Below, piece by piece: positions 4,272 through 17,561 of a stretch of 29,203 nt of DNA; the first letter of the stretch is position 1, and each line of letters opens with the position of its first letter. The position numbers and the translations under genes were made by a program. This stretch comes from a virus. Below the pieces are notes generated by a model, which was not told where the DNA came from, did no database searches, and saw only the letters and a list, made by a program, of their open reading frames with translations. The stretch spans positions 1 to 29,203 of IMG/VR virus record IMGVR_UViG_3300044712_000662. One strand, 5' to 3'.

Positions 4272-4751
4272 ATGAAGATTTGCGAAAAGATATTCGTCTG
4301 CCTCATCGCGGGGATTCTTGCGGTGACGCTCTCCGCCTCGGCGCGCGGCTTCATCTCTCTGCCCTTCACCCCATCCGTCCCGCGCATCGTGACCGTCTAC
4401 GACGTCGCGGTCGAGGGCACCATCGTGCCGGCAGAGCTCTTGCGGGCGATCGCGCGGCGCGAATCTGGGGAGAAAGATTTCGAGGTCGGAGATAATGGCC
4501 TTTCTATCGGGCGCTTCCAGCTTTACGAGGTCTATCACGCAGAGCGTGCGGCCGCGTGGGGGGAATACGACCCTCGGAACCCAGTGCAAGCGGGCAGGGT
4601 GGCGGCACTTTTTCTCCAGGATTGCATCATCGCCTATTCAGGAGACATCGTGCGCGGCATATGCGCTTATCGACAAGGCGTGAAAGGGGTCGAAGAGGAT
4701 GGCCCTACGGTTTGGTATTACGACCAGGTAATGGAGAGGATGAAAATATAA
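4272..4751 (+). CDS. Exported lysozyme-like / SLT-type transglycosylase (159 aa)
   Basis: A signal peptide (KICEKIFVCLIAGILAVTL, cleavage likely near SASA) precedes a small lysozyme-fold domain: AELLRAIARRESGEKDFEVGDNGLSIGRFQL, where Glu64 of RRESG is the expected catalytic residue and the G-L-S-I-G-R-F-Q segment follows as in SLT transglycosylases. A second helical part contains DPRNPVQAGRVAALFLQ and CAYRQG. It would cleave the glycan strands of peptidoglycan in the periplasm, as endolysin or virion-entry enzyme. Start ATG 4272 follows TCGGAGGGACC with ideal spacing. Its stop overlaps the next ATG. Confidence 0.85.
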   Translation: MKICEKIFVCLIAGILAVTLSASARGFISLPFTPSVPRIVTVYDVAVEGTIVPAELLRAIARRESGEKDFEVGDNGLSIGRFQLYEVYHAERAAAWGEYDPRNPVQAGRVAALFLQDCIIAYSGDIVRGICAYRQGVKGVEEDGPTVWYYDQVMERMKI

Positions 4752-7264
4752 TGGAGATCAAAAGCTTGGACTATCAAGACTTTCTGAAATCGAAGATCGT
4801 CATCGCGCCGGAGTCGGGATTCTCGATCGCGGAGGGCGACATTAACCCGATCCTCAAGCCGCACGAAAGGGACTCGGTAATCTGGATGATCCGCGGCGGC
4901 CGGCGCGCGCTCTTCTCCTCCTTCGGCCTGGGGAAAACGATCACCCAGCTCGAGGCACTGCGCATCATCATGGAGCGCGAGCCGGGGAAGGCGCTCATCG
5001 TGGCGCCGCTGGCCATCGTTCACGTCTTCCAGGACGACGCGGAAAAGCTCCTCGGCGGCATGGTCATCCGCTACGTCAAGACGCAAGCGGAGGTAGAGGA
5101 CGCTGAGGAGCGCATCCTCATCACGAATTACGAGCGCGTCAGGGACGGCGATATCCGTCCCGAGTACTTCACGGCCGCATCCCTCGACGAGGCGAGCGTA
5201 CTCCGATCCTACGGGTCGAAGACCTACCAGGAGTTCCTGGACAAGTTCCAGACGGTCAAGTACCGCTTCGTCGCCACGGCCACGCCGAGCCCGAACAAGT
5301 TCAAGGAACTGATCCATTACGCCGGGTTCCTCGGGATCATGGACACAGGGCAGGCCCTGACCCGCTTTTTCCACCGCGACTCCATCCAGGCGAATAACCT
5401 CACCCTCTACCCGCACAAGGAAAAGGAATTCTGGTTTTGGGTATCGACCTGGGCGCTCTTCATCACGAAGCCCTCGGACCTCGGATACTCGGATGAAGGA
5501 TACGAGCTCCCGCCCATGAAGGTGTTCTACCATGAGGTCAAGGTAGATCACTCCACGGCCGGAGCTGACGGTAACGGCCAGGAGAAGCTCTTCCGCGATG
5601 CGGCGCTCGGGCTCAAGGACGCGGCGAAGGAGAAGCGCGACTCGCTCGACGCGCGGATCGAGAAGATGCTCGAGATCGTCGGCGCCGCACCTGACGACCA
5701 TTTCATCCTCTGGCACGACCTTGAGGATGAGCGCCGAGCGGTCAAGAAGGCGATACCGGAAGCGGAGGAAGTCTACGGCTCGCAGGACCTGGAAGAGAAT
5801 ACCAGGATCACGCGCGCCTTCGAGGATGGAAAGATCAAGTACCTGGCCACAAAGCCTGATATATCCGGCCAGGGATGCAATTTCCAGAAGCATTGCCATA
5901 AGGCGATCTTCCTCGGCATCGGGTACAAGTTCAACGATTTTATCCAGGCCATACACCGAATCTACCGCTTCCTGCAATCCGAGCAGGTGGAAATCCATAT
6001 CATCTACGCCGAAAGCGAGCAAGCGGTTCTCCGCGTCCTGCAAGACAAATGGGAGCAGCATAACTACCTCGTCAACCAGATGACGCAAATAATGCGCCAG
6101 CATGGCCTGAACTCGACGAGCATCGCCGAGAAGCTGGCCCGGACCATCGGCGTGGAGCGCGAGGAGATCGCCGGGAAGAAGTTCACGGCCGTCTTCAACG
6201 ACAACGTTGTAGAGCTTCCGCGCCTGGCCGACAACTCGGTCGACCTCATCCATACCTCGATTCCATTCTCGAACCATTACGAGTACACGCCGACCTACAA
6301 CGATTTCGGGCACAACGAGGACAACGCGAAGTTCTTCGAGCAGATGGACTACCTGACGCCCGAGCTCCTTCGCGTCCTCAAGCCGGGCAGGGTAGCCGCG
6401 ATCCACGTCAAGGACCGGATCCTGTTCGGCAACGCGACCGGTACCGGCATGCCTACCGTCGATCCCTTCTCGGACCTGACGACGGCGCACTTTCTCAAGC
6501 ATGGGTTCCAGTTCATGGGGCGCATCACGGTCATTACCGACGTGGTGCGCGAGAATAATCAGACCTACCGCCTCGGCTGGACGGAACAGTGCAAGGACGG
6601 CACCAAGATGGGAATCGGCTGTCCGGAGTACGTCCTCCTCTTCCGCAAGCTGCCGAGCGACACGACGCGCGCCTACGCCGACGAGCCGGTCGTCAAGTCG
6701 AAGATCGACTACCCGCGCTCGCGCTGGCAGATCGATGCGCACGGATTCTGGCGTTCATCTGGCGACCGCCTCCTTGCCCTCGAGGAGCTGAAGGAGGCGC
6801 CCGTCTCGGCGTTGCAGGAGATGTACCGCCAGTACTCGCGAAAATCAGTCTACGACTACCATGAGCACATAGCCCTCGCGGAAGTGCTCGAGCAGGATGA
6901 CAAGCTCCCCAGCTCGTTCATGGTTGTCGCCCCCGGCTCCTGGTCTCCGGATGCCTGGGACGACATCAACCGCATGAGGACCTTGAACGGCGAGCAGGCG
7001 CGCAAGGAATTGACCATGCACATCTGCCCGCTTCAATTCGACATCGTGGAGCGGATCATCGAGCGGTATTCGTCCAAGGGCGAGCTGGTCCTCGATCCCT
7101 TCGGCGGGCTAATGACGGTACCATATATGGCCGTCAAGATGGGGCGCCGCGGCTACGGCATCGAGCTGAACCATGAGAGCTTCACCGATGGGGTCAGGTA
7201 CTTGAAGGGCATCGAGGAAATGATCGAGGCGCCCACCCTGTTCGACATGGAGATCGGCGCATGA
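4751..7264 (+). CDS. SNF2/DEAD-like helicase fused to DNA methyltransferase (837 aa)
   Basis: N-terminal helicase half (about 1-440): Walker A SSFGLGKT (56-63), motif II as DEAS (146-149) instead of DEAH, motif III TATPS (176-180), and motif VI QAIHRIYR (399-406). C-terminal beta-class methyltransferase half (about 475-837): catalytic motif IV as TSIPF (502-506), where most N4/N6 methyltransferases have TSPPY, and the SAM-binding motif DPFGG (782-786) ending in GYGIEL. The order IV then I fits PF01555-type adenine or N4-cytosine methyltransferases. It probably modifies phage DNA, with helicase-driven DNA tracking; anti-restriction is the usual reason. TAATG couples it to the transglycosylase gene. 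Confidence 0.9.
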   Translation: MEIKSLDYQDFLKSKIVIAPESGFSIAEGDINPILKPHERDSVIWMIRGGRRALFSSFGLGKTITQLEALRIIMEREPGKALIVAPLAIVHVFQDDAEKLLGGMVIRYVKTQAEVEDAEERILITNYERVRDGDIRPEYFTAASLDEASVLRSYGSKTYQEFLDKFQTVKYRFVATATPSPNKFKELIHYAGFLGIMDTGQALTRFFHRDSIQANNLTLYPHKEKEFWFWVSTWALFITKPSDLGYSDEGYELPPMKVFYHEVKVDHSTAGADGNGQEKLFRDAALGLKDAAKEKRDSLDARIEKMLEIVGAAPDDHFILWHDLEDERRAVKKAIPEAEEVYGSQDLEENTRITRAFEDGKIKYLATKPDISGQGCNFQKHCHKAIFLGIGYKFNDFIQAIHRIYRFLQSEQVEIHIIYAESEQAVLRVLQDKWEQHNYLVNQMTQIMRQHGLNSTSIAEKLARTIGVEREEIAGKKFTAVFNDNVVELPRLADNSVDLIHTSIPFSNHYEYTPTYNDFGHNEDNAKFFEQMDYLTPELLRVLKPGRVAAIHVKDRILFGNATGTGMPTVDPFSDLTTAHFLKHGFQFMGRITVITDVVRENNQTYRLGWTEQCKDGTKMGIGCPEYVLLFRKLPSDTTRAYADEPVVKSKIDYPRSRWQIDAHGFWRSSGDRLLALEELKEAPVSALQEMYRQYSRKSVYDYHEHIALAEVLEQDDKLPSSFMVVAPGSWSPDAWDDINRMRTLNGEQARKELTMHICPLQFDIVERIIERYSSKGELVLDPFGGLMTVPYMAVKMGRRGYGIELNHESFTDGVRYLKGIEEMIEAPTLFDMEIGA

Positions 7265-15348: not shown

Positions 15349-15400
15349 ATATCAACGACAAAGAAGTCTATCCACACGAGCATAACCCAGGGAGGGGATG

Positions 15401-16261
15401 ATGGCCGACAGAAGAATGTTCGCAAAAACAATCATCGATAGCGATGCGTTTTGCGATATGCCGCACTCAACACAGAATTTATATTTCCATTTGTGCATGC
15501 GCGCTGACGACGACGGATTCATAAATAACCCCAAAAAAATACAACGGACCATCGGATGCTCGGACGATGACGCGCGGTTGCTTTGCGCAAAAAGCTTCAT
15601 CATCCCCTTCGATTCTGGCGTTATCGTCATCAAGCATTGGAGAATGCATAACGCTATCCGAAAAGATCGATACAAAACCACCGTATATCAGGATGAAAAA
15701 AACCAACTTGAAATAAAGCCAAATGGCGCATATACATACAAAAATGGTATACCATTTGGCAACCATTTGGCAACCAATTGTATACCGGAAGGCAACCAAT
15801 TGGAAACCCAGGTTAGGTTAGGTAAGGTTAAGAAAGATATAGTCGATTTAGGAAAATCGACGGGATCGAAAAAAGACTATTCGGAATCGTTCCTCGCCTT
15901 CTACGAATCCTACCCACGGAAGGAGGGGAAGAGCGCTGCGCAGAAAGTCTACAAGCGGGTCGTGAAGACCGAGATCGACCACGCCGCCCTGATGCGCGCC
16001 CTCGAGGCCTACAAATACCGCCTTCTGCAAGACCAGACCGAGACGAAGTTCACCAAGCTGCCCGGAACCTTCCTTGGATGCTTCGCCGACTACCTCGAGG
16101 AGCCGAAGGTCGAGACGCCGAAGAAGCGCGTCGAGGAGAAATGCGAGTGCTGCGGCGCCGAAGGCTGGATGCTCGACGACTTCTGCCGCAAGTGCCACCA
16201 CCAGCGCGGAACTCCCGTGACCGACGCGCAGATCGCGAAGGGGAAGCTCGCGAATGGATGA
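15401..16261 (+). CDS. Phage replisome organizer / helicase loader (286 aa)
   Basis: The N-terminus (ADRRMFAKTIIDSDAFCDMP, then LYFHLCMRADDDGFINNPKK) matches phage replisome organizer proteins, winged-helix origin binders. A linker around residues 105-160 is encoded by repeated DNA (see the iterons). The C-terminal part contains FLAFYESYPRKEGKSAAQKVYKR, a segment seen in phage replication and helicase-loader proteins, and a zinc ribbon CECCGAEGWMLDDFCRKCHH. It should recognise the origin and load DnaB, encoded next with an 8-base overlap. ATG 15401 is better spaced from GGAGGGG than 15398. DNA is AT-rich up to about 15890, then GC-rich. Confidence 0.85.
   Translation: MADRRMFAKTIIDSDAFCDMPHSTQNLYFHLCMRADDDGFINNPKKIQRTIGCSDDDARLLCAKSFIIPFDSGVIVIKHWRMHNAIRKDRYKTTVYQDEKNQLEIKPNGAYTYKNGIPFGNHLATNCIPEGNQLETQVRLGKVKKDIVDLGKSTGSKKDYSESFLAFYESYPRKEGKSAAQKVYKRVVKTEIDHAALMRALEAYKYRLLQDQTETKFTKLPGTFLGCFADYLEEPKVETPKKRVEEKCECCGAEGWMLDDFCRKCHHQRGTPVTDAQIAKGKLANG
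15718..15755. repeat. Inverted iteron copy and 12-bp palindrome upstream of the iteron array
   Basis: GCCAAATGGC at 15718-15727 is the reverse complement of the core of the iterons at 15751 and 15762 (GCCATTTGGC versus ACCATTTGGC). ATGGTATACCAT at 15744-15755 is a perfect 12-base palindrome leading into the first iteron. Both lie within the replisome organizer gene. Confidence 0.65.
15751..15816 (+). repeat. Six phased 11-bp iterons, probable replication origin
   Basis: Units beginning ACC start at 15751, 15762, 15773, 15784, 15795 and 15806, exactly 11 bases apart. The first two are identical (ACCATTTGGCA); the third and fifth share ACCAATTG. Eleven is not a multiple of three, so the period cannot come from protein sequence. 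Four 5-bp units (GGTTA, GGTTA, GGTAA, GGTTA) follow at 15811-15830. As in lambda O, the array sits in the linker region of the initiator gene, so it is likely where that protein binds. Confidence 0.75.
15842..15861. other. 8-bp perfect inverted repeat beside the iterons
   Basis: GTCGATTT (15842-15849) and AAATCGAC (15854-15861) flank AGGA. It follows the GGTTA repeats within an AT-rich stretch and may be part of the origin (a hairpin or protein site). It lies inside the replisome organizer gene. Confidence 0.6.
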
Positions 16262-17561
16262 CGCCGTCTTCCGCAACGAGCAGGCGGAGCGTCAGCTTCT
16301 CGGAGCGATTATGCTCGACAACTCGGCGCTCGACCAGGCGGGGATCGTGTCCGAGGAGGACCTGTACTTCCCGAAGAACCGCACCATCCTCCGGGCGATG
16401 CGTGCCCTGGACCGGAACAAGAACCCGATCGACCTCATTTCCGTCTTCGACCAGATCAAGGTCAACGGCGGGGGCGTGTCCCAGATCGACGTGGCGGTGC
16501 TGACCGATGGCGTGCCCTCCGCGGCGAATATCGATTACTACATCGGGCAGATCAAGGATTGCTCGATGCGGCGCCAGGCGTTCACGAAGGCGAAGGAGCT
16601 CGAGGCTGAGATCCGGGACCGGTCCATCCCGGCCAGCGAGATCATCTCGGTGAAGAATTCCGACATCCAGGGCATCCTGGACAACTCGGGGGCGAACGAA
16701 TACCGATCGACGAAGACCTTCGTACCGGAGTTCATCGACCGCCTGCAAGCCTTGTGCGCGGCGCCCGGGACCATGGACGGGATCAAGACGGGATTCGAGA
16801 ACATCGACAAGATCATCATCGGGCTACAGCCCACCGACTTCGTGGTCCTCGGTGCCCGGCCCTCGATTGGAAAGACGGCGCTCCAGCTCAACATCATGCT
16901 CAACATGGCCCTCGAAGCTGGGATACCTACGGGCATGTTCTCGATCGAGATGAGCCAGAAGTCGCTCACCTCGCGCATGGTGTCGTCGAGTACGGGGATC
17001 TGGGCGTCGAAGCTCCGGAGCGGCTTCCTGAGCGCTGGGGACCTCGACCGCATCTCCGACTTCACCGCACGGCTCTATGCGGCCAACCTGTTCATCGACG
17101 ACACCAGCGGGATATCGATCGACCAGCTCAAGATCCGGGCCCGGCGCATGGTCAAGCGGGACGGGGTGCGGGTGATCTTCATCGACCACTTCTCGCTCAT
17201 CCGCAGCTCGGACACGCGGAAGCAGCGCTGGGAGGTGTTCGCCCAGATCAGCCAGGACCTCAAGGCCCTCGCTAAGGAGCTCAAGACTCCCATCGTGCTC
17301 CTCTGCCAGCTCAAGCGGGACAGCGAGGGGAAGGAGCCGGGGCTGGCTGACCTACGGGAATCCGGGTCCCTGGAGCAGGATGCGGATATCGTGATGCTCA
17401 TGCATCGGAAGCGCCAAGTCGACCTCGAGGATACGTGCAAGGAAATACCGACCGATGTATTGGTCTCGAAGAACCGGGAGGGAGCGGGCGGACGATCGCA
17501 CTTGATCTTCAAGACGGAGACGGTGCGATTCGTGGACGACCTGGGGGAAAAGCGGCCTTAG
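16254..17561 (+). CDS. dnaB: Replicative DNA helicase DnaB (435 aa)
   Basis: The N-terminal domain has NEQAERQLLGAIMLDNSALD and the RecA-like C-terminal domain has Walker A GARPSIGKT (200-208), the SIEMSQKSLTSRM segment, Walker B VIFIDHFSLI and the LADLRESGSLEQDADIVMLM motif with the arginine finger region after it. Length and order match the DnaB family. It unwinds DNA ahead of the fork as a hexamer. AAGGGGAAG precedes ATG 16254, which overlaps the loader gene. Confidence 0.95.
   Translation: MDDAVFRNEQAERQLLGAIMLDNSALDQAGIVSEEDLYFPKNRTILRAMRALDRNKNPIDLISVFDQIKVNGGGVSQIDVAVLTDGVPSAANIDYYIGQIKDCSMRRQAFTKAKELEAEIRDRSIPASEIISVKNSDIQGILDNSGANEYRSTKTFVPEFIDRLQALCAAPGTMDGIKTGFENIDKIIIGLQPTDFVVLGARPSIGKTALQLNIMLNMALEAGIPTGMFSIEMSQKSLTSRMVSSSTGIWASKLRSGFLSAGDLDRISDFTARLYAANLFIDDTSGISIDQLKIRARRMVKRDGVRVIFIDHFSLIRSSDTRKQRWEVFAQISQDLKALAKELKTPIVLLCQLKRDSEGKEPGLADLRESGSLEQDADIVMLMHRKRQVDLEDTCKEIPTDVLVSKNREGAGGRSHLIFKTETVRFVDDLGEKRP

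Follow-up and report, generated by a model that had tools for sequence, protein, structure and literature searches.

Introduction

Some phages carry their replication origin within the gene of their own initiator. Rep2009 of phage Tuc2009 and ORF13 of phage TP901-1 bind repeat-rich regions in their own genes, and these regions serve as the phage origin (PMC8965321). The GenBank record of Tuc2009, one of the lactococcal P335 phages, has the feature 'Rep; orf16; contains origin of replication'. The linker DNA of this gene reads ggcaaccaagt gtcaaccattc cgcaaccaaat gacaaccaaat, then aggataggataggagaggttaggttaggtaagg, and that of r1t ORF11 reads ggaaccgaaat ggaaccgaaac ggaaccaactt, then cagataagaatagattagataag. 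In phage lambda the iterons of ori-lambda also lie inside the initiator gene, O, adjoining an AT-rich stretch.

Related arrangements are described in plasmids and bacteria. In pSK41-type RepA_N plasmids the origin is located centrally within rep, and the initiator is structurally like DnaD (PMC5703833). In the RK2 oriV/TrfA type, Rep binds double-stranded iterons and, in the repeated DUE, one of the two strands in single-stranded form, and none of the DUE repeats is dispensable (PMC4081077). In Bacillus subtilis oriC, repeated TAG-like triplets lie by duplex sites and DnaD binds the complementary strand (PMC10201434, PMC10721633); the DnaD recognition element has two or more 5'-TnnT-3' motifs in the strand that DnaD binds (PMC10201434).

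The DNA analysed here, referred to as the window, comprises 29,203 nucleotides of a virus record (IMG/VR record IMGVR_UViG_3300044712_000662), and all coordinates are those of this stretch. The analysis places a likely origin in an uncultivated phage of approximately 60% GC and ties it to a family in which an origin has been mapped experimentally.

The rep gene, its product and its neighbours

The gene, the predicted domains of its product and the adjoining helicase gene were located as follows:
15398-16261, plus strand: rep, replisome organizer / DnaD-like helicase loader, 287 aa (PHROG and tblastn)
15413-15742, plus strand: N-terminal domain, residues ~6-115, presumed iteron-binding winged helix (AlphaFold2)
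15758-15862, plus strand: disordered linker, residues 121-155, pLDDT < 50 (AlphaFold2)
15884-16102, plus strand: C-terminal helical domain, residues 163-235, presumed helicase or loader contact (AlphaFold2)
16254-17561, plus strand: DnaB-type replicative helicase gene, overlapping the 3' end of rep (Pfam)

The rep product matched PHROG 5708 ('DnaD-like helicase loader', E 5e-74) and PHROG 8489 (E 3e-72), and its assignment to PHROG 5708 makes it a replisome organizer of the Tuc2009/r1t type. By tblastn it was similar to the organizers of Tuc2009, ul36, M102 and other phages (35.6% over 90% for Tuc2009 Rep), while a Pfam scan of the rep product gave no match. The genomes carrying the nearest organizers were mostly Firmicutes. 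SSB and Erf-like genes (Pfam/PHROG) lie upstream of rep, and the product of the downstream gene matched Pfam DnaB_C (E 8e-78) and the DnaB N-terminal domain (E 3e-18). In its GC content of approximately 60% and in this helicase gene the window phage differs from Tuc2009, where the ORF after rep is annotated as a putative topoisomerase; in r1t, a DnaC-like loader gene follows ORF11.

In the AlphaFold2 model, made with 44 homologues, pLDDT was mostly 75-96 across residues 11-115. VIA-align of the N-terminal domain returned mostly winged-helix proteins, with Z up to 6.1 and without a clear winner, and the RepA-type initiators 5kbj, 4pql, 4pta and 4pt7 (Z 5.2-5.7) were tied with unrelated winged-helix proteins. 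A PDB profile search with the rep product gave no significant match, and its best Foldseek match was no better than E 0.25. With Foldseek E values of at least 0.25 and tied VIA-align rows, the assignment of an initiator fold via structure search was dropped. Initiator structures of the pSK41 RepA_N type were among the fold matches at a level not above background. Within rep, the GC content is approximately 0.33-0.55 up to approximately 15.9 kb and 0.55-0.70 thereafter, as if the N-terminal domain and the origin together formed a cassette that had been joined to a host-like C-terminal part just past the TAG array.

Iterons of 11 bp in the linker-coding DNA

The repeats of the window map onto the DNA encoding the predicted disordered linker of rep. 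The elements identified were:
15719-15729, plus strand: outlying iteron-like unit CCAAATGGCGC, 33 bp before 15752, in 11-bp register
15742-15757, no strand: 16-bp perfect palindrome AAATGGTATACCATTT
15752-15806, plus strand: iteron array CCATTTGGCAA, CCATTTGGCAA, CCAATTGTATA, CCGGAAGGCAA, CCAATTGGAAA, in exact 11-bp steps (TRF, shuffles)
15807-15811, plus strand: junction CC-CAG, from iterons to TAG array (relatives; the window conforms)
15809-15836, plus strand: short 5-bp TAG array, CAG GTTAG GTTAG GTAAG, then degenerate GTTAAGAAAG (TRF, shuffles, relatives)
15842-15861, no strand: 8-bp inverted repeat with a 4-nt loop, GTCGATTT/AAATCGAC, arms 15842-15849 and 15854-15861

The original prediction, made from the letters alone, had listed six ACC-starting 11-mers at exact 11-base steps, and all are present: ACCATTTGGCA at 15751 and again at 15762, ACCAATTGTAT at 15773, ACCGGAAGGCA at 15784, ACCAATTGGAA at 15795 and ACCCAGGTTAG at 15806. 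The sixth has only ACC in common with the others and is already part of the 5-bp array. The best 11-bp block found by TRF was 15751-15780. The five iteron units gave 45 of 55 majority matches. This value was not reached in any of 2000 synonymous-codon shuffles, which keep the protein and its codons, or in any of 1000 first-order Markov sequences. For the window, a run statistic for period 11, computed separately, had p = 0.0024. The palindrome described beside them as 12 bp long extends to 16 bp. The 'inverted copy' of the core described at 15718 is present, and it can just as well be read as a direct copy, CCAAATGGCGC at 15719, which stands 33 bases (3 x 11) ahead of 15752 and matches the iteron of relatives on the same strand.

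The array 15752-15806 has the class and register seen in relatives, and thus the linker-coding part of rep contains 11-bp direct repeats of the Tuc2009/r1t class. As in the window, the Tuc2009 gene encodes a homologous organizer and holds this iteron class followed by a 5-bp array at the same gene position; the window iterons are more degenerate past the second unit, and the window TAG array is shorter. In r1t ORF11, GGAACCGAAAT iterons at 11 bp are followed by CAGATAAGAATAGATTAGATAAG, with seven units at 5 nt, and the iteron sequence is another one. The same 11-bp class and 5-bp array are found in both phages, so the repeat sequence and 11-bp phase, which had been put down as unrecognised, are not new. 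The comparison with lambda O that had also been drawn is fair as an analogy only; repeat length and sequence differ, and kinship is not implied.

That an 11-base period does not follow codons had been taken as a sign of selection on the DNA. This argument is weak alone, because an 11-bp repeat also gives an 11-residue protein repeat (NGIPFGNHLAT/NCIPEGNQLET); the DNA-level constraint follows instead from the shuffles and the relatives. The repeats might be a protein feature, the repetitive linker (GNQLAT..., RLGK/SIGK) being kept for the protein, and the 11-residue repeat and a linker composition alike among relatives speak for this. The explanation is very hard to credit against repeat signals above those of synonymous shuffles, an extreme codon choice, and modules located in the non-coding DNA of three relatives whose organizer is without linker repeats (the latter two are described below).

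The 5-bp TAG array and other elements of the window

In the 5-bp array, TRF found period 5 with 4.2 copies (15810-15830), and period 5 in the window exceeded the synonymous shuffles with p = 0.0004, so the four 5-bp repeats first described there are real. The array lies in the fixed register past the iterons and is short, with three strict WAG (T/A-A-G) triplets in step, which is below the four-unit cut-off used for the family.

Several other elements were considered. The 8-bp inverted repeat past the array exists as originally described and is weakly supported in relatives, where a stem of at least 8 bp was observed in 11 of 77, compared with approximately 4% of random sequences of similar composition; with an enrichment this mild, a conserved hairpin was dropped. 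A G-quadruplex in GGTTAGGTTAGGTAAGG was rejected because relatives with TATAG/GATAG units have no GG runs. The TnnT motif of the DnaD recognition element is absent, on both strands, from the in-step units CAGGTTAGGTTAGGTAAGG (GTTAG/GTAAG). The array was also distinct from a DnaA-trio/BUS element, as the steps in the rep family are 5 or 6 nt rather than the contiguous 3 nt of B. subtilis DnaA-trios, and the adjoining sites are 11-bp iterons. The cumulative GC skew across the window made no clear turn at 15.8 kb and is not usable as origin evidence. The proposed origin region was among the less stable stretches of the window and not the least stable, and promoter and terminator scans of the window gave nothing bearing on the origin question.

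Judged on sequence and homology, positions 15719-15842 very probably form the phage origin and the putative binding site of the organizer, embedded in the initiator gene. The in-gene iteron origin of the original prediction is supported by the homology of rep to Tuc2009 Rep, whose gene holds the origin. This is an origin type that is known already, the Tuc2009/r1t-type in-gene origin, that of Tuc2009 having been mapped experimentally in rep.

Conservation of the TAG array in relatives

Protein similarity yielded 94 non-redundant rep homologues, which were counted as equal despite shared descent. In 72 of the 94, at least four WAG triplets at 5- or 6-nt steps were present right after the iterons, nearly always at codons 125-170; several homologues were without an array. 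For 50 of the 94, the WAG array was above all 100 synonymous shuffles of its own ORF, and none exceeded its shuffles at the control steps of 4 and 7. In relatives, iterons and array stand a fixed distance apart: counted from the first NAG, C occupied position -24 in 47, position -13 in 47 and position -2 in 49 of 51 relatives, and the window conforms.

Codon use was compared in 51 arrays with 5-nt steps, 450 units in total, in which the coding strand had 2.9% C. Between the arrays and the rest of the same genes, AGT made up 93% of Ser codons versus 18%, ATA 90% versus 29%, TTA 92% versus 16% and GGT 91% versus 26%, and GAT and AAG codons also departed sharply. Where the frame permits, the XAG triplet was TAG in 118 of 140 and in 115 of 145 units (233/285 together). 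A pure TTAGG repeat would place a TAG stop at every third unit, and in the stop frame TAG was found in 0 of 165 units, the first base being A, C or G in all 165. The genetic code makes this zero unavoidable, and the preference for T in the other two frames is itself partly forced, because A in one of these frames often makes a TAA stop.

This composition bears on two other readings of the array. One is that it is simply a thermodynamically weak, flexible DUE with an incidental repeat pattern; its TpA steps and low GC inside a 60% GC window are what such an element would present. AT-richness fails to give strict 5/6 steps, 2.9% C, a fixed trinucleotide and an extreme codon choice, and this reading is therefore considered unlikely. 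The chief rival is that the array consists of primase start sites, at which the first primers are laid after helicase loading. It arises because 5'-TAG on the coding strand corresponds to 5'-CTA on the opposite one, and most of the firmicute DnaG primases that have been studied prefer to start at the trinucleotide CTA; the Staphylococcus aureus and Geobacillus stearothermophilus enzymes start preferentially at 5'-d(CTA) (PMC5204125). The presence of rep relatives in Firmicutes genomes and the favouring of TAG wherever the frame permits are in line with it. Priming, however, requires neither a strict 5- or 6-nt spacing nor a fixed iteron register, the AAG units that are common in the arrays give CTT, and the Clostridioides difficile primase prefers CCC (PMC5204125). 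Primase sites are accordingly also an improbable explanation.

Variants of the array were observed in some homologues. L045 and L031 avoid TAG in another way, with CAG or GAG in place of AAG in the stop frame. In the rep linkers of L062, L065 and L074 the coding strand of the 5-bp array has CTAAC/TAAAC, a TAG array apparently inverted with respect to the iterons. An association of the array step (5 or 6) with the N-terminal more than the C-terminal domain was dropped, as the step agreement of nearest neighbours (134/140 for the N-terminal versus 85/123 for the C-terminal domain) no longer differed after identity binning.

A literature search returned no description of the TAG array; the original TP901-1 and r1t papers were outside this search and may describe 5-bp repeats. 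The novelty of the TAG module is uncertain, and it looks like an under-appreciated part of the origin.

DNA-only scans and relocated modules

When IMG/VR was scanned on DNA only for six 5-nt units, the matches listed were simple repeats and organizer-like genes. Among these listed matches, the best upstream period was 11 in 43 of 53 coding matches, and the iteron sequences were diverse (TGGCAACCAAA, TGTATACAAAA, GAGTCATGATG, TGGACAACCAA and others). The corresponding scan with 6-nt units gave, among the matches listed, many initiator genes with upstream 11-bp repeats. The array carriers among the matches listed were spread over several initiator families of PHROG, among them DnaD-like loaders, O-like proteins and primosomal proteins. 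Arrays spelling DKDKDK may have a protein-level cause.

Absence of the repeats from relatives with a conserved organizer had been named as evidence that would speak against the origin. Such relatives do occur, yet three of the five virus records concerned carry the repeats elsewhere. In L148, a 57-kb contig, the organizer (L360) has no in-gene repeats, and a non-coding stretch 13 kb from its gene (L148:8725-8852) contains approximately seven 11-bp iterons, ACACAG and uninterrupted TTAGA units. The L046 contig has 11-bp iterons in non-coding DNA and, after them, CTCAG and a TAG array with 6-nt steps (L366; p = 0.0005), and the L017 contig has a smaller non-coding version (L367; p = 0.004), of which the array alone could be chance. 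The three phages with repeat-less organizers thus have intergenic iterons and array in the same order and with the CAG junction. This joint relocation indicates that the two modules travel together, and in the clearest case, L148, the stop-avoiding interruption is gone outside the gene. No relocated modules were found in the virus records L018 (a fragment) and L054, and a search of bacterial genomes for the strict TTAG pattern gave none either.

Repression of its own gene by an initiator is common and in-gene repeats could block transcription, so the iterons might be an autoregulatory or copy-control operator of rep and not an origin. The relocated modules are kilobases away from rep (13 kb for L148/L360), and the repeats within the Tuc2009 gene act as the origin (PMC8965321), which leaves the operator explanation highly improbable.

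L148:8725-8852 together with L360 is a candidate minimal test system. In L167 and L188, non-coding 11-bp repeats (GGTTTCCAACA / GGTTTCCGTCC; GAGTTAATCCA) followed by uniform TAAG arrays were also observed, and no PHROG 5708 protein was found in these two records.

Proposed mechanism

The organizer is proposed to act as follows. Its N-terminal domain would bind the 11-bp iterons, which would all face the same side of the helix, 11 bp being approximately one turn, and the resulting initiator complex would abut the coding-strand 5-bp TAG array in fixed register. Binding would melt the TAG stretch, repeated contacts along one exposed strand would keep it open, and the C-terminal domain would recruit the DnaB-type helicase encoded by the adjoining gene. 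The TAG array may well be a strand-opening or single-strand-capture element. This is inferred from the RK2-type precedent of iterons plus DUE, which has the same two-module logic; RK2 differs in having 13-mers, not 5-6-mers, and different initiator proteins, and its oriV is not known to overlap an initiator gene. In TP901-1 ORF13, as in the window, in-gene repeats serve as the origin (PMC8965321), with a different initiator protein and without a TAG array; the array is thus not needed by all in-gene origins.

It is proposed that the linker peptide of rep is a coding cost, or by-product, of carrying the origin elements in the DNA. For phages more widely, the chances appear even that many initiator genes hold a two-part origin, in which freely varying 11-bp iterons are combined with a near-fixed 5-/6-nt TAG array on one exposed strand, the array being kept across initiator families, moving with the iterons and being interrupted only at would-be TAG stops. 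If so, low-complexity initiator linkers (RLGKDRLGK, SIDKNSIDK, perhaps DKDKDK) would be the shadow of a conserved DNA opening or capture element that differs in step from DnaA-trios and from plasmid 13-mers. The signature of 11-bp iterons, CAG junction and 5-/6-nt TAG array locates origins in many kinds of phages, inside or outside the initiator gene. The comparison also opens the way in which an initiator with no ATPase domain melts DNA and hands over a helicase to a concrete mutational test on small phages of laboratory lactococci.

Other features of the record

Two further features were observed in the window. At the start of the record (4-227), TRF found 8.3 copies of the 27-bp unit ACCAGGGCGCCGCATCGGCCACGGGAA. 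A long ORF at 4556-7264, the true start of which is probably further in, matches DNA methyltransferase families as well as a family of phage DNA helicases (PHROG), and may encode a helicase-methyltransferase fusion.
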